From NCBI GenBank assembly GCA_934589155.1, contig CAKTNP010000007.1:1-64000 (forward strand): a DNA stretch of 64,000 bases. Direction: 5' to 3'. The notes below the pieces were generated by a model, which did no database searches, was not told where the DNA came from, and was given only the letters and a program-made list of their open reading frames with translations. This document shows, one piece after another, positions 6,901 through 23,206 of the stretch (its first letter is position 1; each line of letters begins with the position of its first letter). Made by a program: the position numbers and the translations under genes. This DNA is from an uncultured Oscillospiraceae bacterium (lineage in GTDB: Bacteria; Bacillota; Clostridia; Oscillospirales; Oscillospiraceae).

Positions 6901-9534
6901 ACCTGCACCGAGGACGGCTATACCGGCCGCACCTTCTGCAGGGGCTGCGATTCCGTGGTGGATTGGGGCACCGTAGTCCCCGCTGCGGGCCACAGCTATG
7001 CGCTTGTGGATGAGGTCCTCAGCTGCTCCGTCTGCGGCCAGGTCCTCAGCGGTGTCTGGACCGACGGCAGACTCTATGCCGACGGCCGCGTGGTCACCGA
7101 GCAGTGGATCGACGAGTCCTATTACCGGAACGGCATGAAGCTGACCGGCCTGCGGAAGATCGGCGATTACTACTATGACTTCGGCCAGGAGGGCGTCTGC
7201 CCCAACCGGGCCCGGGTGGACGGCTTCTTCTATGATCCCGCCGTCCAGGCTTACCGCTACTTCAGTGCCGGTATCATGGCTGTGGGCGAGGTGTCCCTGT
7301 ACCCCGAGGTCTACTTCTTTGATGCCGACGGCGTGGCCGTCAGCGGCAAGGTGGACGTTCTGGGCTACACCTGCTATTTCACGGAGCAGGGCGCCTTTGA
7401 CTGCTCCGACGACAGCTCCGTGGTGGACGCCGGATACTGCGGCACCAACATTCAGTATGTCCTGCTGTCCAACGGCACCCTGAAGGTGGACGGCCAGGGC
7501 GTTATGAAGGATTATTCCTCCTCCGGAAATTACCCCGCCTGGGTGACCCAGAACGATTCCAAGAGCATCACCGCCCTGGAGATCGGCAGCGGCATCACCA
7601 AGATCGGCAAGTTCGGCTTCTTCCGGACCCCCTATCTGCGGACCGTCACCTTTGCCAAGGACTCCTCTCTGGAGACCATCGGCTGGGGCGCCTTCGGCCA
7701 CTGCTGGCGGCTCACCGGCGTGACCATTCCCGCCAGCGTGGTGACCCTGGATTCCTACGCCTTCTATGAGTGCGGCGCCATGACCTATGTGAAGTTTGAG
7801 GAAAACAGCAAGCTGACCACCATCAACTACGGCGCTTTCCTCCACGGCATGGAGCTGAAGACCGTGTACATTCCCGAGACCGTCACCAAGATGGGCGCCG
7901 ACGTGTTCTATAACGCCAACGCCAATGTGGTCCTCCAGGTGGCAGACGGCTCCGTGGGCCATACCTACGCCATGGACCACGACTTGAAATATGAGCTCCG
8001 GCCCGGCAAGGTCACCGTCGTGGAGACCGGCAAGCTCACGGATACCGTGGACTGGACTCTCTATTCCAACGGCACCCTGGAGATCCGGGGCACCGGGGCC
8101 ATGCCCAATTTCACCAGCCAGACCCAGCAGCCCTGGGCCGGCCGCCGGGACAGCATCCGGAAGGTGGTCGTCGGCAGGGGCATTACCACCGTGGGCAATT
8201 ACGCCTTTGCTTACTGCCAGCACAATACCGCCATTGAGTTCGAGGCGGGCAGCAAGCTCACCACTCTGGGCGTTCTGGCCTTCTTCAACAACCCCAAGGT
8301 GGAGACCGTCACCATCCCCGACTCCGTGACCTTCATTTCCGCCTACGCCTTGGGCGACTGCTTCGTCCTGACAAGCGTGTACGTGCCCCAGGGTGTCACC
8401 GGCATTTACAAGACGGCCTTCGCCAATTCCGCCAAGGCGGTCCTGAATGTGGCGGCGGGCACCTATGCCGAGACCTTCGCCAAGGATCACGGCCTTCGGT
8501 ATACCACCCGGGACTTCGTCTATATTCCCGTTGCCAGCGGCAGCTGCGGCGAGAACGCCACCTGGGAGATGTATGAAAACGGCGAATTGTGGATCAAGGG
8601 CTCCGGCGCCATGGAGAACTACACCAGCCATACCCAGCAGCCCTGGGCCAATATCCGCCACACCATCAAGAAGATCGTCATCGGCAAGGACATTACCACC
8701 GTGGGCAATTACGCCTTTGCCTACTGCCAGAACACCACCGCCATCGAGTTCAAGGCGGGCAGCAAGCTCACCACCCTGGGCGTCCTGGCCTTCTTCAACA
8801 ATCCCAAGGTGGAGTCCGTCGCCATCCCTGACACCGTGACCTACATTTCCGCTTACGCCCTGGGCGACTGCTTCGCCTTGACGAGCGTGTATGTGCCCCA
8901 GGGTGTCACCGGCATTTATAAGACGGCCTTCACCAATTCTTCCAAGGCGGTCCTGAACGTGGCGGAGGGCACCTACGCCGAGACCTACGCCCGGGACCAC
9001 GGCATCCCCTACACCACCCGGGCCTTCCTGGAGGAGCCCATCGCCGGCGGCACCTGCGGCGAGGACGCTGTCTGGGAGCTGTATGAGAACGGTGAGCTGC
9101 GGGTCAAGGGCACCGGCCCCATGGAGAACTACACCACCCATACCCAGCAGCCCTGGGCCAGCCTCCGGCATACCATCAAGAAGATCGTCATCGGCAAGGA
9201 CATCACCACCGTGGGCAATTACGCCTTTGCCTATTGCCAGAACACCACGGCCATCGAGTTTGAGGAGGGAAGCAAGCTCACCGCCCTGGGCATCCTGGCC
9301 TTCTTCAACAACCCCAAAGTGGAGACCGTGGTCCTGCCCGAGACCGTGACCTACATCTCCGCCTACGCCCTGGGTGACTGCTTCGCCCTGACGAGCGTGT
9401 ATGTACCCCAGAGCGTCACCGGCATTTACAAGACGGCCTTCACCAATTCCGCCAAGGCGGTCCTGAATGTGGCGGCGGGCTCCTATGCCGAGACCTTCGC
9501 CAAGGACCACGGCATTTCCTACACCACAAGATAA
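3904..9534 (+). CDS. Secreted phosphodiester glycosidase (NAGPA-like) with BspA-type leucine-rich repeats
   Basis: 1876 residues. ATG 3904 follows GAGGAGG; the frame is open further upstream without a start signal. A signal peptide (about 1-28, cut near VPAAAA) precedes an NAGPA/DUF2233-type domain (about 100-300) with AGINASYYNMINGKPTG and AGHLDGGGSCTYG. That family hydrolyses sugar-1-phosphodiesters. Ig-like and jelly-roll-like segments follow (300-700), then a cohesin-like stretch (about 800-950), Cys-pair repeats with HTHSPEAV and CTEDGYTG, cell-wall-binding-like repeats (about 1040-1180) and LRR_5 repeats to the end. The last 510 residues are three 170-residue copies. No LPXTG or SLH anchor is present. 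It sits inside the capsule operon, so it may act on the surface glycan. Confidence 0.8.
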   Translation: MKKTRRVLSLLLCAALIFALIPAVPAAAADGQFTQSRLTVAAEKSSALAPGVREDAYTVYDRNGDQVKMWVTTADPTLDTVKLFASYKNMDPTNYGMSKLTEQVASFNEKSNAGDAYYQGTVVAGINASYYNMINGKPTGAFVMNGVDVTTEAEGNQYGYFALMKDGSVKIGKPGEYSSDKGSIQEAIGIYRMLVVDGAICANLDDATKYPRQTIGITADGKVVLMTADGNQEPRSIGLTLREQAQVMLDLGCVAAGHLDGGGSCTYGARAEGTSGFALVNSPSDGSERSISNGFLIVSTAVSDGVFANAALTAEHSYVTPGSAVAVSAVGTDKAGAPAEIPDDVTWTLENSELGTVRDGVFRSNGTVGDARVQMVYNGAVVGETTVHVVIPDAIRFTSQTITIPYGKTAKLEIAATYGASDVATKEDDFVLTLSNPAIGTLEGLTFTAAEEGTEAYSSTLTAALAADPTLTATAQIVLDKGSEVVVDFEDGTDNGFGLSYKDYNYYLPRSEVRVVTAEDGQVHSGKYALALNIDYSNSLESGYQMISLYQKKQDYNGVGAKRLGMWMYIPDEYVGLWGRWMVPPIDSVSDTGEITYGSTITGGIFDGVSAATGIVYTFNESGWHYVSIDTSKYAGAAMLDGYYCFQFYISDRDGANFGYYFKNQHNVNGNFTVYIDDITFDYSTVVEDREAPVFGDMTYATPAMSDALVLKDGATVNSGAIDFAAAVADNTQKDNDTGIDPTTAKAYVDGNEVPATYANGKIALNSSASFTAGKHTVKLSIRDKQGNYASLIRTFTVEADKAQPIRVAAHDPGADRVLLGSVQYMDVIAANIDKIQSVTTTLDLDNMSDWQLDHMIPADGFTVTYSLQKDENIATLEITRTGENTQTGEAPLVSVPVRAWFLENSDKVNPSSNKEWTLAQFFAGKEFWPIAIDLQVDRGLVTYTDGTTDTFTGDGVLIWTEMWANYGNMTATQEGKDYLKSWNGGHTHSPEAVADLAPTCTEDGYTGRTFCRGCDSVVDWGTVVPAAGHSYALVDEVLSCSVCGQVLSGVWTDGRLYADGRVVTEQWIDESYYRNGMKLTGLRKIGDYYYDFGQEGVCPNRARVDGFFYDPAVQAYRYFSAGIMAVGEVSLYPEVYFFDADGVAVSGKVDVLGYTCYFTEQGAFDCSDDSSVVDAGYCGTNIQYVLLSNGTLKVDGQGVMKDYSSSGNYPAWVTQNDSKSITALEIGSGITKIGKFGFFRTPYLRTVTFAKDSSLETIGWGAFGHCWRLTGVTIPASVVTLDSYAFYECGAMTYVKFEENSKLTTINYGAFLHGMELKTVYIPETVTKMGADVFYNANANVVLQVADGSVGHTYAMDHDLKYELRPGKVTVVETGKLTDTVDWTLYSNGTLEIRGTGAMPNFTSQTQQPWAGRRDSIRKVVVGRGITTVGNYAFAYCQHNTAIEFEAGSKLTTLGVLAFFNNPKVETVTIPDSVTFISAYALGDCFVLTSVYVPQGVTGIYKTAFANSAKAVLNVAAGTYAETFAKDHGLRYTTRDFVYIPVASGSCGENATWEMYENGELWIKGSGAMENYTSHTQQPWANIRHTIKKIVIGKDITTVGNYAFAYCQNTTAIEFKAGSKLTTLGVLAFFNNPKVESVAIPDTVTYISAYALGDCFALTSVYVPQGVTGIYKTAFTNSSKAVLNVAEGTYAETYARDHGIPYTTRAFLEEPIAGGTCGEDAVWELYENGELRVKGTGPMENYTTHTQQPWASLRHTIKKIVIGKDITTVGNYAFAYCQNTTAIEFEEGSKLTALGILAFFNNPKVETVVLPETVTYISAYALGDCFALTSVYVPQSVTGIYKTAFTNSAKAVLNVAAGSYAETFAKDHGISYTTR
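8005..9534 (+). repeat. Three tandem 510-bp repeats inside the LRR protein gene
   Basis: Identical landmarks recur at exact 510-bp steps: the CAGCAGCCCTGGGCC block is centred at about 8131, 8641 and 9151. Each unit encodes 170 residues with TQQPWA, VGNYAFAYCQ, LAFFNNPKVE, YISAYALGDCF and VTGIYKTAF. The third unit ends at the stop codon. High nucleotide identity suggests recent duplication or gene conversion. Confidence 0.92.
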
Positions 9535-9881: not shown

Positions 9882-11132
9882 GTGGAAAAGAACATGAATA
9901 TTTTGTATTTTGGCACCGTATGCGATCTGGGATCCTACGAAGCCCTGCTGAAAAACTGCGCGGAAAAGCCCTCCGTTGCCCCAATTGTGTTTGAATCCGC
10001 CCTTTTGCGGGGCTTTTTTCAAAACGGCGCCTCCGTGGAGGTCCATAGTTTCCCCATGATCCCCCCGTTTTCGCAGTCCCAACTGCTGAAATTTGGGGGA
10101 AATCGGGAGAATTTGTCCTGTGGTTATTCCTGCCGCTGGCTGAAAACCGTCAATATTCCGGTATTAAAGCAGATTTCCCGTCGAATGGACGCCCATCGTG
10201 TCATTCGCCGCTGGGCCAGGGCCAACCGGGACACCGGCGTCATTTTCACCTACTCCATCCCGCCCTTTTTAGTCCATGACATTCTCTCCTGCGCCCGGCG
10301 CTATCACATCGCTACGGCGGCCATTATTCCGGATCTGCTCCGGGATATGTATATGAACGAGGCTCTGGACAAATGGAAAACGAAGATAAAAAATTGGTAC
10401 TTAAAACCGGCAATTTCCGTGCAGGGATACTATGACGGCTATATTTATCTAACAAAATCCATGGAAAAGGTCGTTGCACCGGGGAAGCCCTATTTGGTGA
10501 TGGAGGGCATTGCGGACCCCTCGGAGGCCCGGATCTCCCAGAGGCGGGAGCCCGGACCCAAGGCCGTTATGTACGCCGGCCTCCTCTGCGAAAAATACGG
10601 GATTTTGAATCTTTTGGACGGATTTTGCATGTCGAATCTGCCCGATGCGGAGCTGTGGCTCTTCGGCACCGGCACCGCCGTCCCTGAGATCCGCCGGCGC
10701 ATGGAGCAGGACAACCGGATCCGCTATTTCGGCAGCGTTCCCCGGGAGAAAATCCTGTTTTACGAACGAAAAGCGTCGCTTTTGGTCAATCCCCGGGACC
10801 CGGAGGAGCTGTTTACCCAGTACAGTTTCCCCTCCAAGACCATCGAGTATATGCTCTCCGGCACGCCTCTGCTGACCACGAAGCTGAAGGGCATTCCGGA
10901 GGAATATTTCAATTATGTGTTTACGGCCCTGTCGAATCGGCCCGAGGACCTGGCGGTGGGGATCCGAAAAGCCCTGACCTGCTCAGAGGAGGACCGGCTC
11001 CGGATGGGAGCGGCGGCCCAGCAATTTATTGTGGAGAAGAAAAACGCCGGGGCCCAGGGCGCCCGGATCCTGGCGTTTTTGGAAGAATTGACGGACTCGA
11101 AAAAGAAGGTATCTAATGGAGAGAAGGGCTGA
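9882..11132 (+). CDS. GT4-like glycosyltransferase
   Basis: 416 residues. The C-terminal donor domain is recognisable: AVMYAGLLCEKYGILNLLDGF, ELWLFGTGTAVPEI, IRYFGSVPREKILFYERKA, and FPSKTIEYMLSGTPLL with the acidic and serine residues of GT4 enzymes. The N-terminal half (YFGTVCDLG, FTYSIPPFLVHDI) is more diverged. GTG 9882 has AGGGA five bases upstream; ATG 9894 is an alternative. Its 3' end overlaps the polymerase gene by 17 bp. Codon use looks more A+T-rich than in its neighbours, so this part of the locus may have a separate history. Substrate unknown. Confidence 0.82.
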   Translation: MEKNMNILYFGTVCDLGSYEALLKNCAEKPSVAPIVFESALLRGFFQNGASVEVHSFPMIPPFSQSQLLKFGGNRENLSCGYSCRWLKTVNIPVLKQISRRMDAHRVIRRWARANRDTGVIFTYSIPPFLVHDILSCARRYHIATAAIIPDLLRDMYMNEALDKWKTKIKNWYLKPAISVQGYYDGYIYLTKSMEKVVAPGKPYLVMEGIADPSEARISQRREPGPKAVMYAGLLCEKYGILNLLDGFCMSNLPDAELWLFGTGTAVPEIRRRMEQDNRIRYFGSVPREKILFYERKASLLVNPRDPEELFTQYSFPSKTIEYMLSGTPLLTTKLKGIPEEYFNYVFTALSNRPEDLAVGIRKALTCSEEDRLRMGAAAQQFIVEKKNAGAQGARILAFLEELTDSKKKVSNGEKG

Positions 11133-12408
11133 AAACCGAGAAAACCGGGAGATCCTGGCGTTTTTGCTGCTGTTTCTGGCGGCCATGAACTTCGGCGCGA
11201 AGTTTTTCTATTTCGTGCTGCTGGCCCTTCTGACGGTCCTTGTCAGAAAGGGCTGCCTGGAATTTGACGGGATCTCCGTTCTGCATTTGGTCCTGTGCGC
11301 CTGGATGGGCGTTTACAACATCCGGGAAGGATTTCTGTCCGTACTCCGGTGTTTTGCGCCCTTCTGCTTTTATCTGGTGGGGCTGAATCTGGTTTCGGAT
11401 CCTTCATCGGCCCTGCCTGATTTCCAGAAAGGCAACAATGCCCGGAGACAGGGGTATGGGATCCTGGCGGTGATCTCCTTGGGCTCCTTTGCCCACTATG
11501 TTCTGAATTTTTTGTATAATTTTGGCGCTTCCATGGGGCGAAACACCAACGACATCTGGACCGGCAGCAGAATGGCGGCCACGGGCCAGAACGCCCTGAC
11601 CTGCCTTATGCTGGGGTTGGCCTGCGCGGTGATTTTCCTTCCTACCCAAAAATGGCATCGGTGGGGCGGCATCGCCAGCATTCTGCTGATCGTGGCCTAT
11701 AACATGGTCCTTTCCTGTCGAACCATGCTGGCCATGCTGGCAATACTACTGTTTCTTGGCATGTTGTATCCCAGAAAAGATATTAAGTACGGGACCCAGC
11801 TCCTGCGGTGCCTTGTGTGGGTCCTGATCCTGGGCGGGGCCGCTTTTGCCCTGTACCAATGGAATGTGGGCGGCATTCGGGACCTGATCCGAAGCTCGAC
11901 CCTGTTCTCCCGGTTGGGAGGGTCCCTGAATTCCCTGACGGACAACGACTCCCGGCAGTATGCAAAGAAAATGTTTCTCTCCCAGATGGGGAAATACCCC
12001 TTTGGGGGCTGCCATATGCGCAGCATGTACAACTACGCTCACGACCTGCTCCTGGACGCCTACGATGAATACGGGATCGTTGTGTTCGCAATGCTGACGG
12101 CGCTGCTGGCCGTGGGATTGGTGCAGCTGTACCGCTTGATCCGCAGGACGGGCTATGACGAGTCCTTTAAGCTGATGGCGCTGCTTATCTCCTGCGGCGT
12201 GCTGCTGGAATTCATGATGGAGCCCATTCTGGTGGGAATGCCATGGCTGTTCTCCTGCTATTGCCTGATCAACGGCTGCATTGTCGGAATGAACCGGACG
12301 TTTTTCACCTATGGAATGGGAGCGAAGGAGCGGAAGGATGAAAGTATTACAGATCAATACGGTGTACGGCCAGGGCAGTACCGGAATGATCGCAAGGTCC
12401 ATTCATGA
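11116..12408 (+). CDS. Wzy-like polysaccharide polymerase / O-antigen ligase family
   Basis: 430 residues with about ten hydrophobic helices and a long extracytoplasmic loop (about 255-300, RSSTLFSRLGGSLNSLTDND) before YAHDLLLDAYDEYGI. That H-D...YG pattern is typical of Wzy polymerases and WaaL-like ligases. It would join lipid-linked repeat units outside the membrane after Wzx export. ATG 11116 overlaps the previous gene. The last 24 residues are encoded in DNA that also encodes the start of the next glycosyltransferase (71-bp overlap), which suggests tight translational coupling. It is the only polymerase candidate in the locus. Confidence 0.8.
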   Translation: MERRAENRENREILAFLLLFLAAMNFGAKFFYFVLLALLTVLVRKGCLEFDGISVLHLVLCAWMGVYNIREGFLSVLRCFAPFCFYLVGLNLVSDPSSALPDFQKGNNARRQGYGILAVISLGSFAHYVLNFLYNFGASMGRNTNDIWTGSRMAATGQNALTCLMLGLACAVIFLPTQKWHRWGGIASILLIVAYNMVLSCRTMLAMLAILLFLGMLYPRKDIKYGTQLLRCLVWVLILGGAAFALYQWNVGGIRDLIRSSTLFSRLGGSLNSLTDNDSRQYAKKMFLSQMGKYPFGGCHMRSMYNYAHDLLLDAYDEYGIVVFAMLTALLAVGLVQLYRLIRRTGYDESFKLMALLISCGVLLEFMMEPILVGMPWLFSCYCLINGCIVGMNRTFFTYGMGAKERKDESITDQYGVRPGQYRNDRKVHS

Positions 12409-13555
12409 CCTTTGCAAAGAGGAGGGTATTGCATGCCTTTCCGCCTGCCGCTGTCTTCCCCGGGAGCCCATGGAGGATGTGACCGCCGTCAGCTCCAAAT
12501 GGGACAGCAGGCTCCACGGACAGCTGTCCCGGTTTACCATGTTCAAGGGGGCGGGCTCTTATGGAAAGACCCGGGCCTTTCTCAAAAAGGCGGAGGCCTT
12601 TGCCCCCGATGTGATCCATCTGCACAATCTCCACGGCAGCTATATCAACCTGCCCCTGCTGTTCCGGTATATCAAAAAGCACCGGATCCCCGTGGTGTGG
12701 ACCCTGCATGACTGCTGGGCCTTTACGGCCATCTGTTCCCATTTTTCCATGGCGGGCTGTGAAAGGTGGCGGTCCGGCTGCGGAAAATGTCCTCAAAAGA
12801 AACGGTACGCCTCGGCGCCGGCGGACCTGAGCCCATGGGTGTGGCGGGCGAAGCGGGCCTGGTTCACGGGCCTTCCCCGGGCGGTCATCGTGACCCCGTC
12901 CCATTGGCTGGAGACCCTTGCGAAGGATTCCTTCCTTGGGGGCTACCCGGTCCGAAGGATCCCCAACGGCATTGATCCGGAGGTGTTCCGGGAAACGGAT
13001 TCCGATTTCCGGCGAAAGCATGGCCTGGAGGGCAAGAAGATCGTGCTGGGGGTGGCCTTTGATTGGAGCGAGGCCAAGGGCCTGGATGTGTTCCTGGAAC
13101 TGGCCCGACGCTTGCCGGAATCCTGCCGGATTGTGCTGGTGGGCACCGCGCCGGAGACGGCGCGGCGGCTGCCGGAGAACGTTCTGGCCATCCCCCGGAC
13201 CAAAGACCGGCGGGAGCTGGCGGAGATCTACACGGCGGCGGACGTTTTTGTCAATCCCACCCGGGAGGAGGTCCTGGGCCTGGTCAACCTGGAGGCCCTG
13301 GCCTGCGGCACCCCGGTGGTCACCTTCGACACCGGCGGCAGTCCGGAGTGCGTGGGCCCCGGCTGCGGTACGGTGGTGCCGAGGGACGACGTGGACGCCA
13401 TGGAGCGGGAGATCCGCCGGATCTGCACCCAAAGCCCCTATGCGAAGGAGGACTGCCGGGCCTGGGCCCTGGAGTTCGACCAACAGCGGTGCCTGCGTAC
13501 CTATATCAGCCTGTACCGGGAGCTGGCCGAGGAAAAGAAAGACGGTTCACAGTGA
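12338..13555 (+). CDS. GT4-family glycosyltransferase (paralogue of 2567-3772)
   Basis: 405 residues from ATG 12338, preceded by AAGGAG with a seven-base spacer. It has MKVLQINTVYGQGSTGMI, VIHLHNLHGSYIN, WTLHDCWAFTAICSHF, a CERWRSGCGKCPQKK cysteine patch, IPNGIDPEVF, and FVNPTREEVLGLVNLEALACG. Every one of these is matched in the gene at 2567-3772, so the two are duplicates that probably transfer different sugars in the same repeat unit. The stop codon overlaps the GTG of the next gene. Confidence 0.87.
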   Translation: MKVLQINTVYGQGSTGMIARSIHDLCKEEGIACLSACRCLPREPMEDVTAVSSKWDSRLHGQLSRFTMFKGAGSYGKTRAFLKKAEAFAPDVIHLHNLHGSYINLPLLFRYIKKHRIPVVWTLHDCWAFTAICSHFSMAGCERWRSGCGKCPQKKRYASAPADLSPWVWRAKRAWFTGLPRAVIVTPSHWLETLAKDSFLGGYPVRRIPNGIDPEVFRETDSDFRRKHGLEGKKIVLGVAFDWSEAKGLDVFLELARRLPESCRIVLVGTAPETARRLPENVLAIPRTKDRRELAEIYTAADVFVNPTREEVLGLVNLEALACGTPVVTFDTGGSPECVGPGCGTVVPRDDVDAMEREIRRICTQSPYAKEDCRAWALEFDQQRCLRTYISLYRELAEEKKDGSQ

Positions 13556-14715
13556 GAATTTTGTTTATTTCCAACTATTATACCCACCACCAGGGGCCCC
13601 TGTGCGAAGCCTTGGACAGGCTGACGGAGCACCGGTTCATCTTTGCGGAGACGGAGCCCTTTCCCGAGGAGCGAAAGCGCCTGGGCTGGAAACCCCAGAC
13701 CGGGGTGCCCTTTGTCCGGCAGTATGGGGAGCTTTGCCGGGACGGCGGCGACCCTGTGCTGGAGGCGGATGTGGTGATCCTGGGCAGCGCCCCCTTGGCC
13801 CTGGTGCGGCAGCGGCTGCGGGCCCGGAAGCTGACGTTTTTATACGCGGAACGGATCTACAAAAACGGCTATGAACCGCTGAAATGGCTGCCTCGGGTGT
13901 TCCGTTTTTGGGCCAGATACGGCAGATACCCTTCGCTGTATCTGCTGGCTGCCAGCGGCTATGCCGCCGGCGACTACAGACGTCACGGGACCTTCCTGGG
14001 AAAAAGCCGCCGGTGGGGATATTTTCCGGAGGCCAAAGCCTATGACCTTTCCTCGCTGCTTGCGGCGAAGGACCCACGGAAGATCCTGTGGTGCGGACGA
14101 TTTTTGGACTGGAAGCATCCGGAGGCCGCACTGGAAACGGCCAAGAGACTGAAGGACCTGGGGACCCCCTTTGAACTGGACCTCATCGGGACCGGCCCCA
14201 TGGAAGAGGAACTGAAGCGGCGGGTCCGGGAGGTGGGGCTGGAGGACCGGGTCCGATTCCTGGGGACCATGGACGCGGAGGCGGTGCGGACCCATATGGA
14301 GTCCGCCGGGATCTTCCTTTTCACCAGCGACTTTCACGAGGGCTGGGGCGCGGTGGTGAACGAGGCCATGAACAGCGGCTGCGCCGTGGTGGCCTCCCAT
14401 GCCGCAGGCTCGGTGCCCTTCCTTCTGCGCCAGGGGGAAAACGGCCTGATCTACCGGAGCGGAGACATTGACGGCCTGTACGGACATGTGAAGACTCTCC
14501 TGGGGCGGCCGGAGCGACAGCGGGAGCTGGGGGCAAAGGCCTATGAGACCATCACGCATTTGTGGAACGCGGACTGCGCCGCGGAGCGGCTCCTGACCCT
14601 GGCGGAGGAGCTCCAAAAGGGCGGAGACGGGGATATATACTCGGAGGGCCCCTGCAGCCGGGCCCCGATCCTTTGGAACAACTGGTTCCCGGAAGAAAAA
14701 TCGGGACAAATCTAG
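13552..14715 (+). CDS. GT4-family glycosyltransferase
   Basis: 387 residues from GTG 13552. The start overlaps the previous stop (GTGA), and the frame is open far upstream without protein-like sequence. The N-terminal domain begins RILFISNYYTHHQGPLCEAL. The C-terminal donor domain has ILWCGRFLDWKHPEAAL, LIGTGPMEEEL, VRFLGTMDAEAV, and SDFHEGWGAVVNEAMNSGC, the E-x7-E region of GT4 enzymes. A 30-residue tail follows the fold. Cytoplasmic; substrate unknown. Confidence 0.87.
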   Translation: MRILFISNYYTHHQGPLCEALDRLTEHRFIFAETEPFPEERKRLGWKPQTGVPFVRQYGELCRDGGDPVLEADVVILGSAPLALVRQRLRARKLTFLYAERIYKNGYEPLKWLPRVFRFWARYGRYPSLYLLAASGYAAGDYRRHGTFLGKSRRWGYFPEAKAYDLSSLLAAKDPRKILWCGRFLDWKHPEAALETAKRLKDLGTPFELDLIGTGPMEEELKRRVREVGLEDRVRFLGTMDAEAVRTHMESAGIFLFTSDFHEGWGAVVNEAMNSGCAVVASHAAGSVPFLLRQGENGLIYRSGDIDGLYGHVKTLLGRPERQRELGAKAYETITHLWNADCAAERLLTLAEELQKGGDGDIYSEGPCSRAPILWNNWFPEEKSGQI

Positions 14716-14746
14716 TCTAGACGAAAATGCGGAAGGAGGCATGAGA

Positions 14747-16009
14747 ATGAAGGAACTGGCCCGGCGCCTGGCCTATGAGCTGACCCGAAAGGAGGTCCGG
14801 GAGGAAAACCTGGAGATCCGGGAGATCCGACTGGAGCGGAAGGACCTGCGGTTTTTCTGCCTGTCCACCAATCCCATTCTCATCTTCCGCCGGGAGGGGG
14901 AGATCTGGTTCTTCCGGGAGTGTCCCGAGAGACTTCCGGCGGGGCCCTATTGGGACCGGGTTTGCGGCCGGTTTTTCGACTCCTTGGACCGGCTGGAGGT
15001 GGATAAGACCCTTTTTCCCCAAGAGATCCCCATTCGGCTGGACTTCGGAGAGGGGGAGATCCGGGCATTCCGGGATTACCTCCGGGAAAAGCGGCAGGAC
15101 AGGGCCTTCCGGCGGGCGCTGCGGAATGCGGACCGAATCGCCCGGCGGGTCCGGTTTTCCGTTTGGGAGGAGCGGACCTATGACGGGGCCTTTTTTGAGG
15201 CCTTTCACATGGAGGACCTGCCGGAGGGGTGCCGGGATCTGGGGGTGTATTTTCTCTGGAATATGCGCACCGCCGCCGGAAATTTCCGCCTGCGCAATGT
15301 GGCCCGGGCCGGAAACTATTCCTGCTTCGGCGCCCTCCGGGCCGCGGCGACCCAGGCCGCGGCGGAGCTGCTCCGGGCGGAGGACCTGGTCACGCCGGTT
15401 TTCTGGTGCCGCCTGACGGTGGAGGGAGAGGAGTTGTTCGGAACCCTGAGCCCCGCCGCCCCCGGCGGCCGCATGACGGACCGGGCGGCGGAGCCGACCC
15501 CCGCCCTGCAGCGGGAGCTGTCCCGGCTGAATATCCTGGATGTGGTCTGCCGCCAGACGGACCACGGCCCCAACAACTATAATATCTGGACGGACGAAAA
15601 CGGAAATTGCAGGGTCCGGGCCTTTGACAACGACAATCCCCAGACCTTTTTTCCGGCCCCTTCCATTGGAGGGGCCCTGGCGGGCTGTACCCCATGGGCG
15701 GACGGAAAGGGCCGGGTCCTGCGGCCCGGCGTGGACCGGCGCCTGGCGGAGCGTTTGAAAGAACTGAGATACAAAGATCTGCGCCGGGCCTTGAGGCCCT
15801 ATCTTAACGGCCTGCAGATCGCCGCCGTGAATGGGCGGGTCCGCCGGATGAACCGGGCCATTGCCAGGACCGCGGAACAGACTCCGGGTTTTTTGAAAGA
15901 CGAGACCCGGTGGGATGAAGACTCCCTGGCGGAGGAAATGAGCGGACGGTACGGCCGGACGTATTTAACGAGGGCGGCGGGCCCACGGAAAGAGAGGGAG
16001 AGAGAATGA
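14747..16009 (+). CDS. Putative atypical (PI3K/Fam20-like) kinase of the polysaccharide locus
   Basis: 420 residues. ATG 14747 lies seven bases after GGAAGGAGG; ATG 14741 is too close. No signal peptide or membrane helix is seen. The middle reads RNVARAGNYSCFG, then ALRAAATQAAAELLRAEDLV. This resembles the segment of PI3/4-kinase-like and Fam20-like proteins in which an early-helix Arg/Ala-rich run precedes a VP-type hinge. Further on, CRQTDHGPNNYNIW matches a D-[RH]-x3-N catalytic loop, and VRAFDND could be the metal-binding aspartate motif. The fold call is an inference from these motifs. It lies between glycosyltransferases and the flippase, so a sugar or lipid-linked glycan is a plausible substrate. 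The next gene overlaps it by four bases. Confidence 0.5.
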   Translation: MKELARRLAYELTRKEVREENLEIREIRLERKDLRFFCLSTNPILIFRREGEIWFFRECPERLPAGPYWDRVCGRFFDSLDRLEVDKTLFPQEIPIRLDFGEGEIRAFRDYLREKRQDRAFRRALRNADRIARRVRFSVWEERTYDGAFFEAFHMEDLPEGCRDLGVYFLWNMRTAAGNFRLRNVARAGNYSCFGALRAAATQAAAELLRAEDLVTPVFWCRLTVEGEELFGTLSPAAPGGRMTDRAAEPTPALQRELSRLNILDVVCRQTDHGPNNYNIWTDENGNCRVRAFDNDNPQTFFPAPSIGGALAGCTPWADGKGRVLRPGVDRRLAERLKELRYKDLRRALRPYLNGLQIAAVNGRVRRMNRAIARTAEQTPGFLKDETRWDEDSLAEEMSGRYGRTYLTRAAGPRKERERE

Positions 16010-16980
16010 AAGAGAACGAGAACACCCAAAAGGGCACCGGCAGGGGCCGGCCCTGGCTGACGGCAGGTCTGGCGGCCCTGGCAGTAGCGCTGGTTTGCGG
16101 CCTGGCCTTTGGCCTGAGCCGCAGGGCCCCGGCGAAGCCGGCGGCCCCCGGCACCGAGCAGACGGAGAGCCTCCGGGCCACGGAGACCCAGGCCGGGACC
16201 CAGGAGACCTTGGGAGATCTTCTTGTGGAGACCCCCTTCGGCACCCTGCGCTGCCCCGGGACCTGGGGCAGCGGGCTCTATGCCGAGACCGAGGATCTTG
16301 GCAGCGGCTATGTGGTCCGGTTTTACGGCACCTGCGGCAGCGGAACAAAGAAGCTCTTCACGATCCGGTTCGGCTCCGGTGGGGAAAACGGGACCTATGT
16401 GGGAAAGATCACCCAGGGCGGCATCGAGACGGAGGTGTATCTGGAAAGAGAGGACCTTACGGACACCGCCTCCTGGAGCGACCAGGACAGAAAACTCATG
16501 GAAGAAATGCAGGACGCCAGCGGCGGCCTGATCGGAGATTTGTCGGAGGACGTATTTTTCAGCGGTGACGAGGAGGAGCGGGAGGAAGAGATCCCGGCCC
16601 CCGATTCGGCGGATACGCGGATCGAGACACCCTACGGTGCCCTGTACCTCCCCGCCCAATGGACGGACGCCCTCCGCTGGGACCTGGAAACCGGGGAGGA
16701 CGGAGCCGTCCTCCGGTTCTATGGAACGGTAGGGCAGGGGGAGTATCCCCTCTTCACCTATAGCTTTGAAACGCCGGCCGAGGACGGGTTCCGGGTGGGG
16801 AGCCTGGACCGGGGCGGGGAGACCCTGGGGGTGTACCTGACCATCTATGATCTGCCGGAGGGGGACTGGACCGAGGGGGAGGAGAGCCTCTTTGGGGCCC
16901 TCCGGGATCAGGCCTATTCCGTCCTGAACAGGCTGTCGGAGGAGCCGGACTTTCGGCCCCTGGACGGAGAGGAAGAATAG
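16006..16980 (+). CDS. Membrane-anchored protein with duplicated domain, function unknown
   Basis: 324 residues. A charged N-terminus and one helix (LTAGLAALAVALVCGLAFGL) would anchor it with the rest outside. Two similar domains follow. About 70-150 begins VETPFGTLRCPGTWG and has GYVVRFYGTCGSGTKKLFTI. About 205-285 begins IETPYGALYLPAQW and has AVLRFYGTVGQGEYPLFTYSF. An acidic linker (EEEREEEIP) joins them. ATG 16006 overlaps the kinase-like gene (ATGA), so the two are probably translated together. No known family was recognised. Confidence 0.75.
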   Translation: MKENENTQKGTGRGRPWLTAGLAALAVALVCGLAFGLSRRAPAKPAAPGTEQTESLRATETQAGTQETLGDLLVETPFGTLRCPGTWGSGLYAETEDLGSGYVVRFYGTCGSGTKKLFTIRFGSGGENGTYVGKITQGGIETEVYLEREDLTDTASWSDQDRKLMEEMQDASGGLIGDLSEDVFFSGDEEEREEEIPAPDSADTRIETPYGALYLPAQWTDALRWDLETGEDGAVLRFYGTVGQGEYPLFTYSFETPAEDGFRVGSLDRGGETLGVYLTIYDLPEGDWTEGEESLFGALRDQAYSVLNRLSEEPDFRPLDGEEE

Positions 16981-16992
16981 AGGAGTTGGACC

Positions 16993-18303
16993 ATGGCTGA
17001 ACGGAATCTGTTTCGGAACCGGGTCGTAAAGAACGCGGGGTGGCTCATCGGCGGCCAGGTCGCCAATAAGCTGCTGTCGTTTCTGGTGGGGATCCTGACG
17101 GCCCGCTATCTGGGCCCCAGCAACTACGGCCTGGTGAATTATGCCGCGGCCTACACCTCCTTTTTCGCCTCCTTCTGCACCCTGGGCATCAATTCCATTA
17201 TCGTCAAGAATTTTGTGGACCACCCGGAAGAGGAGGGTACCACCATAGGCACCGCCTTTTTGCTGCGGGCCGTTTCCAGCTTCCTGTCCATGGTGATGAT
17301 CCTTGGCGTGGTCTGCGTTGTGGACAGGGGAGAGCCCCTGACCATCGTCGTGGTGGCCCTGTCCAGCGTGGGCCTCCTGTTCCAGGTATTTGACACCGTC
17401 AACTACTGGTTCCAGGCCCATTTGCAGTCCAAGTACTCCGCCATCGCCTCCGTGCTTTCCTACATGCTGGTCTCCGGGTATAAGATCATCCTTCTGGCCA
17501 TGGGAAAGAGCGTGGAGTGGTTCGCGGTGGCCACCTCTCTGGATTATCTGTTTCTGGCCCTGTTCCTTTTGACGGCTTACTTCAAAAAGGGCGGCGGCCG
17601 GCTCCGGATCTCCCGGGCCAAGGCCAAGGAGCTGCTGGGGGCCAGCAAGAGCTTTATTATCCCGGGGCTTATGGTGTCCGTTTATGCCAGCACGGACAAG
17701 CTGATGCTCAAGGGTATGCTGGACGAGGCCGCCGTGGGCTATTACGCTCTGGCTTCCACCCTGAGCTCGGCCTGGGCCTTTGTGCTGGCGGCCATCATCG
17801 ACTCGCTGTATCCCGAGATCGTGCAGGCCTTCGGAAGGGACCGGCGGCAGTATGAAAGAAAGAACCGGCAGCTGTATGCCATTGTGTTTTACGCTTCGGT
17901 TTTCGTATCAGCGGCGATCTGCGTCCTGGCAGGGCCCATTATCCGGCTGCTCTATGGAGCGTCCTATCTTCCGGCGGCGGAGCCGCTGCGGGTAGTGACC
18001 TGGTATACCGCCTTTTCCTATCTGGGTGTGGCGAGAAATGCCTGGATCGTCTGTGAAAACCAGCAGAAATACCTGAAATACATCTATATCGGGGCGGCCC
18101 TCATCAACGTGGCGCTGAATCTGGCGCTGATCCCTCTGTGGGGGGCCGCCGGCGCGGCGGCGGCGTCGCTGATCACCCAGGTGTCAACGATCCTGCTGCC
18201 GTCCCTCATCCGCCCCCTGCGGCCCAATGTGAAGCTGATGCTGGAGGCGGTGGGGCTCAAAGACGTCCTGCCCCAAAGACGGGACGCAGACAGGAAGGAG
18301 TGA
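16993..18303 (+). CDS. Wzx-type polysaccharide flippase (MVF/MOP family)
   Basis: 436 residues with about 12-14 hydrophobic helices. The N-terminus NAGWLIGGQVANKLLSFLVG followed by LTARYLGPSNYGLVNYA is the classical start of Wzx/RfbX lipid-linked oligosaccharide flippases. It would move the undecaprenyl-linked repeat unit across the membrane for the polymerase at 11116-12408. GAGGAG lies seven bases before ATG 16993. Confidence 0.93.
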   Translation: MAERNLFRNRVVKNAGWLIGGQVANKLLSFLVGILTARYLGPSNYGLVNYAAAYTSFFASFCTLGINSIIVKNFVDHPEEEGTTIGTAFLLRAVSSFLSMVMILGVVCVVDRGEPLTIVVVALSSVGLLFQVFDTVNYWFQAHLQSKYSAIASVLSYMLVSGYKIILLAMGKSVEWFAVATSLDYLFLALFLLTAYFKKGGGRLRISRAKAKELLGASKSFIIPGLMVSVYASTDKLMLKGMLDEAAVGYYALASTLSSAWAFVLAAIIDSLYPEIVQAFGRDRRQYERKNRQLYAIVFYASVFVSAAICVLAGPIIRLLYGASYLPAAEPLRVVTWYTAFSYLGVARNAWIVCENQQKYLKYIYIGAALINVALNLALIPLWGAAGAAAASLITQVSTILLPSLIRPLRPNVKLMLEAVGLKDVLPQRRDADRKE

Positions 18304-18309
18304 ACCAAG

Positions 18310-19341
18310 GTGTCTCAATCATTTGAAAACGCAGTCCTGCTGATCACCGGCGGAACGGGATCCTTTGGAAACGCGGTACTGGACCGATTTCTCACCACGG
18401 GGATCCGGGAGATCCGGATCCTGTCCCGGGACGAGAAGAAGCAGGACGATATGCGCCACGCTTACCAGGCGAAAATGCCGGAGCTGGCGGGAAAGATCAA
18501 ATTTTACATCGGAGACGTGCGGGACTATCATTCCATTACGGGGGCCTTCCGGGGGGTGGACTATGTGTTCCACGCGGCGGCTCTGAAGCAGGTGCCCTCC
18601 TGCGAGTTCTACCCCATGGAGGCGGTCAAGACCAACGTGCTGGGCTCCGACAACGTGATCACGGCCTGCGTGGAAAATCACGTGAAAAAAGCCATATTCC
18701 TGTCCACGGACAAAGCGGCCTATCCCATCAACGCTATGGGCATGACCAAGGCGGTAATGGAGAAAAACGTGATCGCCCGGTCCCGCCAGATGCTGCCCGG
18801 GGACCCGGTGCTGTGCCTGACGAGATACGGCAACGTCATGGCCTCCCGAGGCTCCGTGATCCCCCTGTTCTGCGAGCAGCTGGAGGAGGGCAAGCAGCTT
18901 ACGGTCACAAATCCGGACATGACCCGCTTTATGATGACCCTGAACGACGCTGTGGACCTGGTCCTCTACGCCTTTGAGCACGGCGCCCAGGGGGATCTGT
19001 TTGTCCAGAAGGCCCCCGCCGCCACCATCGAGACCCTGGCCCGGGCCATCCTGGAGCTGAAGGAGTCCGACCTGGGCTATACCTGCATCGGGACCCGCCA
19101 CGGGGAGAAGCTGTATGAGGTGCTGGTCACGGCGGAGGAAATGTTGCGGGCCGAGGACCTGCCGGGATTTTTCCGGATCCACGCCGACGGTCGGGACCTG
19201 AACTATGACAATTACATCAGCAGGGGGAACAAGGCACTGGGGAACATGGTCCAGTACACCTCCCACAACACGGAGCGGCTGGACGTGGAGGGCATGAAGG
19301 CCCTGCTGCGGAAGCTGAAGCTCTTTGGAGGGGAATGCTGA
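18310..19341 (+). CDS. capE: UDP-GlcNAc 4,6-dehydratase/5-epimerase (CapE/FnlA type)
   Basis: 343 residues, extended SDR fold. The NAD(P)-binding motif is ITGGTGSFGNAVLDRF, followed by RILSRDEKKQDDMR, HAAALKQVPSCEFYPMEA and FLSTDKAAYPINAMGMTK. The last carries the M-x3-K variant of the SDR catalytic motif seen in CapE and FlaA1 relatives. It would catalyse the first step from UDP-GlcNAc toward UDP-L-FucNAc. The start is GTG 18310 after GGAAGGAG. The following capF and capG complete the pathway. Confidence 0.88.
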   Translation: MSQSFENAVLLITGGTGSFGNAVLDRFLTTGIREIRILSRDEKKQDDMRHAYQAKMPELAGKIKFYIGDVRDYHSITGAFRGVDYVFHAAALKQVPSCEFYPMEAVKTNVLGSDNVITACVENHVKKAIFLSTDKAAYPINAMGMTKAVMEKNVIARSRQMLPGDPVLCLTRYGNVMASRGSVIPLFCEQLEEGKQLTVTNPDMTRFMMTLNDAVDLVLYAFEHGAQGDLFVQKAPAATIETLARAILELKESDLGYTCIGTRHGEKLYEVLVTAEEMLRAEDLPGFFRIHADGRDLNYDNYISRGNKALGNMVQYTSHNTERLDVEGMKALLRKLKLFGGEC

Positions 19342-20540
19342 TGAAGATCCTGATCACCGGGGCGGCGGGATTTGTCGGGAAGAATCTGACGGCGGCCCTG
19401 GAAAATATCCGGGAGGGAAAGGACCGGACCCACCCCCTGTGCTCCGTTACGGAGCTCTATGCCTATGACCGGGACACGGATCCCGCCCTTTTGAAGACCT
19501 ATTGCCGGGAGGCGGACTTCGTGTTCCACCTGGCGGGGGTGAACCGGCCCAAGGCGCCGGAAGAATTTATGGCGGGCAACTTCGGCTTTACCTCCGTCCT
19601 GCTGGATACGCTGCGGGAGGCCGGGAATACCTGCCCGGTGCTGTTGGCCAGCTCTGCCCAGGCCTCCCTGGCGGGCAGATACGCCGGCAGCGAATACGGC
19701 AAAAGCAAGCTGGCCGGGGAGGAGCTGCTGCGCCGCTACGGGCAGGAGACCGGGGCCCGGGTCCTGATCTACCGGTTCCCCAACGTGTTCGGCAAATGGT
19801 GCCGCCCCAACTACAACAGCGCCGTGGCCACCTTCTGCTACAATGTGGCCCATGATCTGCCCGTTTCCGTGACGGATCCCCAGATGGAGCTGGAGCTGGT
19901 GTACATTGACGATCTGGTGGAGGAGCTCTTGGGGGCCCTTTCAGGCCAGGAGCACCGCTGCGCGTATGAGGGCCTGAGGGCGGTCCCTGATGAAACGGGA
20001 CCCTACTGCTATGTGCCCGTGACCCACAGGGAGACCCTGGGGGAGATCGTGGAGCTTCTCCGGGGCTTTGACCGGCAGCCCAAGACCCTTCTCATGCCGC
20101 CCATGCCGGAGGACTCCTTTGCCAAGAAACTATACGCCGCCTACCTGTCCTATCTGCCCAAGGAGAAGATCGCCGTTCCTATGAAAATGAACGTGGACGC
20201 CCGGGGCAGCTTTACGGAGCTTCTGAGGACGGAGGCCTGCGGCCAGATCTCCGTGAACATCTCCAAGCCCGGGGTCACCAAGGGGCAGCATTGGCACAAT
20301 ACCAAATGGGAGTATTTCGTGGTGGTATCCGGCCATGGCCTGATCCGGGAGCGAAGGATCGGGGACGATGAGATATTGGAATTTGAGGTATCGGGTGATA
20401 CAATAGAGGCGGTCCACATGCTGCCGGGATATACCCACAGCATTATTAATCTGAGCGAGACGGAAAATCTGGTGACCGTGATGTGGGCCAGCGAGTGCTT
20501 CGACCAGGCCCACCCCGACACCTTCCGGGAGGAGGTATGA
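19341..20540 (+). CDS. capF: Bifunctional SDR reductase / cupin enzyme of UDP-L-FucNAc synthesis
   Basis: 399 residues from ATG 19341, which overlaps the capE stop by one base and sits seven bases after GGAGGGG. The N-terminal SDR domain (1-240) has ILITGAAGFVGKNL and EYGKSKLAGEELL. The C-terminal cupin domain (about 275-395) has KGQHWHNTKWEYFVVVSG, with metal-binding histidines and a glutamate. This two-domain layout is specific to CapF/FnlB, in which the cupin half epimerises and the SDR half reduces the 4-keto intermediate. Confidence 0.9.
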   Translation: MKILITGAAGFVGKNLTAALENIREGKDRTHPLCSVTELYAYDRDTDPALLKTYCREADFVFHLAGVNRPKAPEEFMAGNFGFTSVLLDTLREAGNTCPVLLASSAQASLAGRYAGSEYGKSKLAGEELLRRYGQETGARVLIYRFPNVFGKWCRPNYNSAVATFCYNVAHDLPVSVTDPQMELELVYIDDLVEELLGALSGQEHRCAYEGLRAVPDETGPYCYVPVTHRETLGEIVELLRGFDRQPKTLLMPPMPEDSFAKKLYAAYLSYLPKEKIAVPMKMNVDARGSFTELLRTEACGQISVNISKPGVTKGQHWHNTKWEYFVVVSGHGLIRERRIGDDEILEFEVSGDTIEAVHMLPGYTHSIINLSETENLVTVMWASECFDQAHPDTFREEV

Positions 20541-20542
20541 GT

Positions 20543-21706
20543 ATGGAGACGGGATTTCAGAACAACGGAAAATTAAAGCTCCTGATCACCCTGGGGACCC
20601 GGCCGGAGATCATCCGGCTGTCCGAGGTGATCCGGAAATGCCGCCGGTATTTCGACACCCTGGTGGCCCACACCGGGCAGAATTATGACTATACCCTCAA
20701 CGAGATCTTCTTCCGGGATCTGGACCTGGCCCTGCCGGAGATCTACCTGAACGCGGTGGGGAAGGACCTGGGGCAGACCATGGGCAACATCATCGCCAAG
20801 AGCTACTCGCTCATGGCGGAGCTCCGGCCCGATGCCGTGCTGGTGCTGGGGGATACCAACTCCTGCCTGTCCGTCATTGGGGCCAAGCGGCTGCACATCC
20901 CCATTTTCCACATGGAAGCGGGCAACCGCTGCAAGGACGAGTGCCTGCCGGAGGAGACCAACCGCCGGATCGTAGACATCATCTCCGACGTGAATCTGGC
21001 CTATTCGGAGCACGCCCGCCGCTATTTGGCGGAGTGCGGCTGCCCCCGGGAGCGTACCTACGTGACCGGGAGCCCCATGGCGGAGGTGCTCCACCGGAAC
21101 CTTTCCCGGATGGAGGCCAGCGACGTTCTGACCCGGCTGGGCCTGGAGCGGAAGCGGTACATCCTGCTGTCCGCCCACCGGGAGGAGAACATCGACACCG
21201 AGAAGAATTTCAGGTCCCTGTTCGAGGCGGTGAACGCCCTGGCCCGACGGTACGATATGCCCATCCTCTATTCCTGCCACCCCCGCAGCCGAAAGCGGCT
21301 GGAGGCCAGCGGCTTCCGGCTGGACGGGCGGGTCATCCGCCATGAGCCCCTGGGCTTTCATGATTACAACTGCCTGCAGATGAACGCCTACTGCGTGGTG
21401 TCGGATTCCGGGACCCTGCCGGAGGAGAGCAGCTTCTTTGCCTCCGTGGGCCGGCCCTTCCCGGCGGTGTGCATCCGCACCTCCACCGAGCGGCCGGAGG
21501 CCCTGGACAAGGGCTGCTTCGTCCTGGCGGGGATCGACACAAAGTCCCTCCTGCAGGCGGTGGAGACGGCGGTGGCCCTGCAGGAGGACGGGTGCTTTGG
21601 AACTCCGGTGCCGGATTATACCGACGAGAACGTGTCGGATAAGGTGGTGCGGATCATCCAAAGCTATACGGGGATCGTCGACCGGACCGTGTGGAGGAAG
21701 GAGTAG
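20543..21706 (+). CDS. capG: UDP-N-acetylglucosamine/talosamine 2-epimerase (CapG/WecB family)
   Basis: 387 residues. ATG 20543 is seven bases after GGAGG; ATG 20537 overlaps the capF stop but is too close. LITLGTRPEIIRL, VAHTGQNYDY, LVLGDTNSCLS, IFHMEAGNRC, EETNRRIVD and SDSGTLPEESSF are the signature motifs of hydrolysis-free nucleotide-sugar 2-epimerases. In this context it would make the last step to UDP-N-acetyl-L-fucosamine, a building block used in Staphylococcus type 5/8 capsules. Confidence 0.9.
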   Translation: METGFQNNGKLKLLITLGTRPEIIRLSEVIRKCRRYFDTLVAHTGQNYDYTLNEIFFRDLDLALPEIYLNAVGKDLGQTMGNIIAKSYSLMAELRPDAVLVLGDTNSCLSVIGAKRLHIPIFHMEAGNRCKDECLPEETNRRIVDIISDVNLAYSEHARRYLAECGCPRERTYVTGSPMAEVLHRNLSRMEASDVLTRLGLERKRYILLSAHREENIDTEKNFRSLFEAVNALARRYDMPILYSCHPRSRKRLEASGFRLDGRVIRHEPLGFHDYNCLQMNAYCVVSDSGTLPEESSFFASVGRPFPAVCIRTSTERPEALDKGCFVLAGIDTKSLLQAVETAVALQEDGCFGTPVPDYTDENVSDKVVRIIQSYTGIVDRTVWRKE

Positions 21707-21708
21707 AA

Positions 21709-22449
21709 ATGGCCTTTGCGGATATTCACATCCATGCCCTGTCCGGCGTGGATGACGGAGCCAAGACCGAGGCGGAGATGCGGGCCATGGTGGACGCGTC
21801 CTATGCCGACGGCGTCCGGCTCCTTTGCGTGACGCCCCATTTTCACCCCGGCTATTTCGGGGAGAACGGGGCCCTGGCCGACAGAGCCTATGAGAAGATG
21901 GAGGCCTACGTCCGGCAGCGGTACGGGGACCTGGAGCTGTTCCGGGGGAACGAACTGCGGTACAGCGGGGACTGCGTCTCCTGGCTGGACGGCGGACAGT
22001 GCAGGACCCTGAACGGGACCCGGTTCGTGCTGGTGGACTTCTCAGAAGGGGAGGAGGCCAGGCGGATCGCGAACGGCCTGGACCGGCTGCTGAACGGGGG
22101 CTACCGTCCGGTCCTGGCCCATGTGGAGCGGTACCGCAGCCTCTTCGGAAAGCTCCGGGAGATCCAATCCTATTGTGACAACGGGGTCCTGCTGCAAATG
22201 GACACTCAGTCGCCCCTAGGGGGCTTCGGGTTTCGGGTGCGGCAGCAGAGCCGGGAGCTTTTGGCCCGGGGAATGGTGGATCTGGTCTGCTCCGATGGGC
22301 ACGACGCCCAAAGGCGCTCGCCGCAGATGTCGGAATGCTGCCGGTATATTCAGAAGAAAGTGGGACCGGAATACGCCCAGCTGGTCTGTTATGACAACGG
22401 GGCCCGTATTCTGCGGGGAACATCCGGGGAGGATTTTGAGGAACGATGA
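21709..22449 (+). CDS. CpsB/YwqE-type PHP-fold tyrosine phosphatase
   Basis: 246 residues from ATG 21709 after GGAGGAAGGAG. The metal-binding PHP motifs are present: FADIHIHALSGVDDGAKT, TPHFHPGYF, FRGNELRYS, AHVERYRSL, and the late CSDGHDAQ. Such enzymes dephosphorylate the tyrosine cluster of CpsD-type kinases, and the kinase gene lies two genes downstream. Its last four bases overlap the next gene (ATGA). It is somewhat shorter than B. subtilis YwqE but all key residues are kept. Confidence 0.9.
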   Translation: MAFADIHIHALSGVDDGAKTEAEMRAMVDASYADGVRLLCVTPHFHPGYFGENGALADRAYEKMEAYVRQRYGDLELFRGNELRYSGDCVSWLDGGQCRTLNGTRFVLVDFSEGEEARRIANGLDRLLNGGYRPVLAHVERYRSLFGKLREIQSYCDNGVLLQMDTQSPLGGFGFRVRQQSRELLARGMVDLVCSDGHDAQRRSPQMSECCRYIQKKVGPEYAQLVCYDNGARILRGTSGEDFEER

Positions 22450-23198: not shown

Positions 23199-23206
23199 AG
23201 GGATCT

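Follow-up and report, generated by a model that had tools for sequence, protein, structure and literature searches.

A kinase-fold protein family in a clostridial surface-polysaccharide locus and its possible role in glycan phosphorylation

Described kinases of related fold or role

CotH, Fam20C, HipA and CtkA are protein kinases, and Fam20B and POMK are animal kinases that phosphorylate sugars within a growing glycan. The subject here is a 420-residue protein encoded at positions 14747 to 16009 of a 64,000-nucleotide stretch of contig CAKTNP010000007.1 from an uncultured Oscillospiraceae bacterium (the window, meaning this whole stretch), which is predicted to adopt a kinase fold of the same group and lies in a Wzx/Wzy-type polysaccharide locus. 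Judged from its sequence, it represents a real, unrecognised kinase-fold family that is outside every named family tested, and it is a new family inside a known superfamily.

The type II PI4-kinases (PI4K2A and PI4K2B, hereafter PI4K-II) share with the window family the fold, the catalytic D-x4-N and the metal-binding DN. They carry the lysine of VFKPK and a CCPCC motif, whereas the window family has an arginine, shows no CCPCC by eye, is bacterial, lies in a polysaccharide locus and has no PF00454 match, this model not being among the 16 Pfam families matched by the 38 members scanned at E <= 1. The Fam20 kinases, and in particular Fam20B with its xylose substrate, act in the secretory pathway, whereas the window kinase has no visible hydrophobic leader; the Fam20 and HipA Pfam models were both unmatched among the same 38 members at E <= 1. 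The spore coat is the setting of CotH kinases, a capsule locus that of the window family; CotH (PF08757) is the nearest kinase model but stays under its cut-off, with 11.9 against 23.8 bits (E 0.16) and a match at E <= 1 in one of the 38 members.

A likeness in proposed role, by description and not by sequence, is offered by WbdD of E. coli O9a, a bacterial kinase that places phosphate on a sugar of a polyprenol-linked glycan (PMC3482155). WbdD combines a eukaryotic-type kinase, a methyltransferase and a coiled coil in an ABC-transporter pathway, whereas the window kinase has one domain in a Wzx/Wzy-type locus, and no methyltransferase model of Pfam or NCBIfam matched within its 420 residues. 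The Lcin_0519 kinase-methyltransferase family is a predicted kinase found in some neighbourhoods beside polysaccharide export genes (PMC9758233); its fused methyltransferase, unlike anything in the window kinase, sets it apart by description only.

Fold, family and catalytic motifs

The gene and its key motifs are located as follows.

14747..16009, plus strand: kinase-fold protein, 420 aa; intact open reading frame (ORF) with no strongly hydrophobic segment
14915..14917, plus strand: codon of R57, which occupies the position of the ATP-binding beta-3 lysine; the family has FFRECP, against FFKEC for the sister kinases and VFKPK for PI4K-II
15557..15583, plus strand: catalytic loop TDHGPNNYN, residues 271-279; D272 the catalytic Asp and N277 the metal-binding Asn by alignment; aligned with TDRGNDNW of PI4K-II
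15623..15634, plus strand: metal-binding loop FDND, residues 293-296, in 53 of 53 rows; AFDND of relatives aligns with AIDNG of PI4K-II

The ORF start is preceded by AGGAGG (14734-14739), 7 bases 5' of the ATG at 14747; an alternative in-frame ATG lies at 14741, and the spacing of this Shine-Dalgarno-like element favours 14747. The stop shares ATGA (16006-16009) with the start of the next gene, and the ORFs on the opposite strand here are assumed to be artefacts of GC-rich sequence. One protein search returned 37 homologues at 38-98% identity, 35 of them unnamed and two hypothetical, and a profile search listed 50, numbers that make the observation more than chance. The family alignment (A2), built from these homologues, has 53 rows including the window protein; row P0002 is 98% identical to it, and row P0036, a fragment without the N-terminus, was omitted from one alignment with relatives used for the ATP-lysine position. 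The highest 19-residue hydropathy is 0.77 in the window kinase, whose calculated pI is 9.2, and ranges from 0.77 to 1.67 across the 53 rows with one borderline row, values that rest on hydropathy only and on no signal-peptide predictor.

Relatives outside the family were collected by profile searches in two samples. Of the 394 genomes of the order of genome G004 eight matched, three with family members, four with distant C-lobe relatives (L013-L016) and one with a spurious hit, and of the 300 genomes of the family of genome G001 also eight, two with family members, five with a sister group and one with a fragment. The spurious hit, L017 (E 7.5e-5), is by eye a signalling protein of another kind and was dropped.

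The predicted structure has a PI4K/Fam20/HipA-type kinase fold that resembles PI4K-II, Fam20 and CotH, with PI4K-II as the best Foldseek match and CtkA, HipA and Fam20C also near by fold. This bears out the kinase-like fold proposed in the initial annotation, which had also recognised no annotated family; indeed, no Pfam, NCBIfam or PADLOC model scored above its cut-off on the protein. In hhalign comparisons, the family aligned with a profile of seven relatives (L019, L021, L022, L024, L014, L015, L016) over 376 columns at 99.9% probability (E 8.9e-31), a score reached by 0 of 60 column shuffles. The seven relatives aligned in turn with vertebrate PI4K-II at 66.7% (E 5.3e-5), with the catalytic loops together and AFDND on AIDNG. 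The family alone, compared directly with PI4K-II, aligned the same catalytic loop, and again 0 of 60 shuffles scored as high. PF00454 appeared below its cut-off in three of the four distant relatives (E 4.8e-5, 0.0057 and 0.019) and was unmatched in four scanned sister proteins. The sequence links to the relatives and PI4K-II, taken with the fold, place the family in the PI4K/Fam20/CotH/HipA group, and the protein very probably has a kinase fold.

Some of the scores pull the other way. No Foldseek TM-score among the top matches exceeds 0.38, a low value, and the fold alignment covers 221 of 420 residues, about half of the kinase. One of 60 shuffles outscored the real pair of relatives and PI4K-II, so that this link alone proves little, and the direct comparison of the family with PI4K-II reached a probability of only 4.7% (E 0.0085).

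Further candidates were considered and set aside. A phmmer search of the PDB returned seven chains only, at E 0.46-0.64, including PINK1 over residues 60-128, and no relative. The family profile matched an integrase (E 0.022) and WlaC (E 0.18) away from the motifs, taken as chance, and when family and sister proteins were combined in one profile, PI4K-II beta came no better than E 0.97, ranked after three unrelated chains. An NCBIfam IS701 transposase model (E 0.015) was far under its cut-off. Pfam DUF6074 appeared below threshold in 10 of the 38 members, the lowest E being 0.0027. No use was made of a model of L024, a sister kinase, built from its sequence alone (predicted local distance difference test, pLDDT, 37.8).

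Throughout the 53 rows, no variation is seen at D272, H273, N277, Y278, D294, N295 or D296, nor at G240, R242 and D245 a little upstream of the catalytic loop. The Asp and Asn of TDHGPNN and the Asp pair of FDND are thus conserved, as the kinase reading of the initial annotation required; of the upstream Arg/Ala-rich segment that it had described, a helix at residues 194-208 (consensus FFxAVRxxASxIVAEELGL) is conserved, and the Arg/Ala richness itself proved to be no family trait. Judging by sequence alignment with PI4K-II, these residues would line one ATP pocket.

Phosphotransferase activity is likely, yet catalysis may be altered or lost, because the beta-3 lysine is replaced by arginine (R57, in all 52 rows that have a residue there) and no clear alpha-C glutamate was found in the kinase. 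The missing ATP lysine gives rise to the quite improbable alternative of a pseudokinase, or of a kinase fold with other chemistry such as AMP transfer, glutamylation or binding only. The arginine of all 52 rows speaks for it, set against lysine in five of eight relatives (L019, L021, L014, L015 and, by eye, L022; glutamate in L024, unclear in L013 and L016), whereas the catalytic Asp, the metal-binding Asn and the DND triad never vary. POMK and WNK kinases are moreover active without the beta-3 lysine, other lysines standing in (PMC5142810). K15, present in 49 of 52 rows, could by analogy substitute in the same way, which is a guess.

The catalytic loop bears on the type of substrate. It contains no Lys or Arg and an invariant His (H273). 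According to one study, protein kinases have Lys or Arg in this loop and small-molecule kinases generally do not, which makes the loop fit a small-molecule or glycan kinase, and a His in the loop of UbiB kinases is a possible sign of peptide phosphorylation (PMC4702295). The loop thereby touches on the alternative that the enzyme is a protein kinase, phosphorylating Wzx, another locus protein or the leucine-rich repeat (LRR) protein before its export and so regulating capsule assembly. The lack of Lys and Arg stands against this, whereas H273 could act as a basic residue and, by its parallel with UbiB, possibly hints at peptide phosphorylation, a point that counts against a sugar substrate. 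In Fam20B, xylose is bound by a His that lies two residues beyond the catalytic Asp (PMC5865150), whereas H273 of the window kinase directly follows D272. Fold offers the protein-kinase alternative further support, in that CotH, Fam20C, HipA and CtkA phosphorylate proteins; it is nonetheless unlikely in view of the gene distribution described below.

Genomic context and proposed function

The window locus comprises the following genes around the kinase.

3907..9534, plus strand: locus head; phosphodiester glycosidase (NAGPA) domain (PF09992, E 6.1e-33) and BspA-type LRR (PF13306, E 3.7e-75)
9906..11132, plus strand: group-1-type glycosyltransferase, GT_9906 (PF13692, PF00534)
11116..12408, plus strand: hydrophobic protein without Pfam match, named a candidate Wzy polymerase for its location and general look; relatives in L004, L005 and L072
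12338..13555, plus strand: glycosyltransferase (PF00534, E 1.1e-23)
13549..14715, plus strand: glycosyltransferase (PF00534, E 1.2e-28)
16006..16980, plus strand: gene whose start codon overlaps the end of the kinase gene; its product shows, by eye, a hydrophobic N-terminal stretch and a pair of similar repeats
16993..18303, plus strand: Wzx-type flippase (PF01943, E 3e-28)
18310..19341, plus strand: CapE-like nucleotide-sugar enzyme (PF02719, E 1.4e-100)
19338..20540, plus strand: CapF-like enzyme (PF14667, E 6.9e-44)
20534..21706, plus strand: CapG-like UDP-GlcNAc 2-epimerase (PF02350, E 1.3e-78)
21703..23881, plus strand: CpsB-, CpsC- and CpsD-like regulatory module (PF19567, PF02706, PF13614)

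The names CapE, CapF and CapG follow from domains and gene order, as in the cap loci of S. aureus. The locus-head protein has a signal-like N-terminus by eye and resembles PDB 3ohg as well as NAGPA chains. No HipB-like partner adjoins the kinase, the preceding glycosyltransferase ending 31 bases before it and the next gene overlapping its stop.

The protein would be an ATP-dependent phosphotransferase with a PI4K-II/Fam20/CotH/HipA-type fold, working in the cytosol at the membrane and late in the making of a Wzx/Wzy surface polysaccharide, once the glycosyltransferases have finished the lipid-linked repeat unit. D272 would serve as catalytic base while N277 and D294/D296 hold Mg-ATP, a phosphate would be placed on a hydroxyl of one repeat-unit sugar, and the Wzx encoded beside the kinase would then flip the phosphorylated unit. 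What the data show is the family itself, its invariant motifs, its predicted fold, its position beside Wzx and its co-occurrence with one glycosyltransferase; kinase activity, cytosolic place, sugar substrate and order before flipping are all four points that we infer. The chances are even that the protein phosphorylates glycan in the cytosol, with the lipid-linked repeat unit as its substrate; a sugar of that unit as the target is an equally balanced case, towards which synteny and co-occurrence point indirectly.

Neighbourhoods were viewed for the window and for five other kinase loci (L001-L005, in Clostridia and Oscillospiraceae metagenome-assembled genomes), whose kinases are 39-50% identical to that of the window. 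The kinase gene directly follows Wzx in 5/5 of these, starting at the Wzx end or within 45 bases of it, an arrangement that could also suit a protein kinase acting on Wzx. The five genomes (G001-G005) were found through the kinase, so these 5/5 counts are conditional on it. Glycosyltransferases of the same kind lie upstream of the kinase in L003, L004 and L005, a Wzy-like gene was matched in L004 and L005, and the large glycosidase/BspA-repeat protein stands first in the locus of the window and of these three (G003, G004, G005). For G001 and G002, the glycosidase head piece and GT_9906 are on a different contig from the kinase, so that a single locus is not shown there; the GT_9906 contig of G001 also has a partial CapE, located after the glycosyltransferases. 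The protein at 16006..16980 has no counterpart in L001-L005 and no Pfam match at E <= 0.01.

Co-occurrence separates the genes that travel with the kinase from those that do not. GT_9906, searched for in the 394 order genomes and 14 chosen genomes, has relatives at 50-60% identity in all five kinase genomes (60% in G001, 52% in G003), and at E <= 1e-80 it occurs in 3 of 394 order genomes, the very same three that carry the kinase. For the glycosidase-LRR protein, the first 998 residues have a near-full-length match (56-58%) in G002-G005; G001 shows only the last 139 of these residues, at a contig edge, at 53%. Among six kinase-free genomes, chosen via Wzx (G483, G502, G648) or CapE (G312, G358, G376) and counted as kinase-free by the 394- and 300-genome profile searches, five had no match to this piece and G358 had weaker ones (best 35%, E 6e-76). 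Among the 300 genomes of the family of G001, five have a Wzx at 53-58% (E <= 1e-110); three of these five lack the kinase and contain, instead of GT_9906, a 30-34% relative. CapEFG likewise occurs without the kinase (L050, L051, L059, L060, L061), and L052 and L053, also from kinase-free genomes, have CapE without CapF or CapG.

With GT_9906 and the glycosidase shared, and Wzx and CapEFG found without it, the kinase follows the repeat-unit-specific cassette and not CapEFG or CpsBCD, as is expected of a glycan-modifying enzyme and less so of a general regulator or a carrier-lipid kinase. A protein kinase regulating assembly is disfavoured here, since the family tracks GT_9906 and not the Wzx clade or CpsBCD. 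A kinase for lipids, with the polyprenol carrier or a membrane lipid as substrate in the manner of PI4K-II, would agree with the best fold match and with the basic calculated pI, but a carrier kinase should be widespread, whereas the family occurs in 3/394 order genomes against 97/394 for CapE (E <= 1e-90); such a role is highly improbable. Just as little weight is given to a kinase that acts on free precursors, either a monosaccharide or a nucleotide sugar: CapE relatives (61-66% identity, one partial) are present in all five kinase genomes, against 97/394 in the order at E <= 1e-90, but CapE is seen near the kinase in 2/5 loci (L002, L005), and the CapEFG sets named above occur without the kinase.

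Two aspects of the context argue against a glycan kinase linked to flipping. The window order is kinase, intervening gene, Wzx, which puts the kinase upstream of the flippase, and the co-occurrence may reflect a cassette moving as a block with kinship uncorrected, the calculated figure of 1e-7 ignoring both kinship and linkage.

The glycosidase partner makes a phosphate in the polymer more likely and is silent on which enzyme adds it. A two-enzyme phosphate tag, in which a cytosolic kinase would write the phosphate on the lipid-linked unit and the secreted LRR phosphodiester glycosidase would trim or read sugar-phosphodiester bonds outside, is a doubtful extension of the proposed glycan kinase. 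If true, bacteria would have a counterpart to the mannose-6-phosphate uncovering enzyme of animals and to Fam20B/POMK, and the accompanying glycosidase in any case gives a direct, testable prediction on the polymer. Should the glycan-kinase role itself hold, the PI4K/Fam20-like fold would serve polysaccharide assembly in bacteria too, in a Wzx/Wzy cassette of Clostridia, and phosphate-bearing capsules would become predictable from sequence. The invariant arginine at the place of the ATP lysine provides a test of how dispensable that lysine is. No description of the family turned up in a literature search, most subscription papers being outside its scope, so that absence from print is not shown.

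Relatives and kinase-free loci

CapE in loci L045-L047 and L050-L053 (genomes G312, G358 and G376) is 78-85% identical to that of the window, and these genomes are perhaps kin of its organism on this ground; none matched the kinase profile. Further genes, named by eye, are present in two loci that have a Wzx of the same clade but no kinase: a LicD-like gene with a TagD-like cytidylyltransferase in L059 (3636-5785) and a nucleotidyltransferase-like gene between CapE and CapF in L061 (2289-3458).

The sister kinase-like proteins are 398-498 residues long (L019, 1063-2292; L021, 1447-2781; L024, 1495-2688; L022, 1456-2949), and three of these four have Lys at the R57-equivalent place. Their N-termini are hydrophobic and signal-like by eye, so they are perhaps exported. 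Further sister-group copies (L018, L020, L023) are apparently broken by internal stops or are fragments, and the L023 fragment adjoins a LicD-like gene (name by eye) at 29-30% to that of L059. The L022 protein has in addition a ChW repeat (PF07538, E 1.5e-9), and L013 (436-3396) encodes 987 residues that join a part related to the kinase family with an ADP-ribosyltransferase domain (PF03496, E 8.9e-12).
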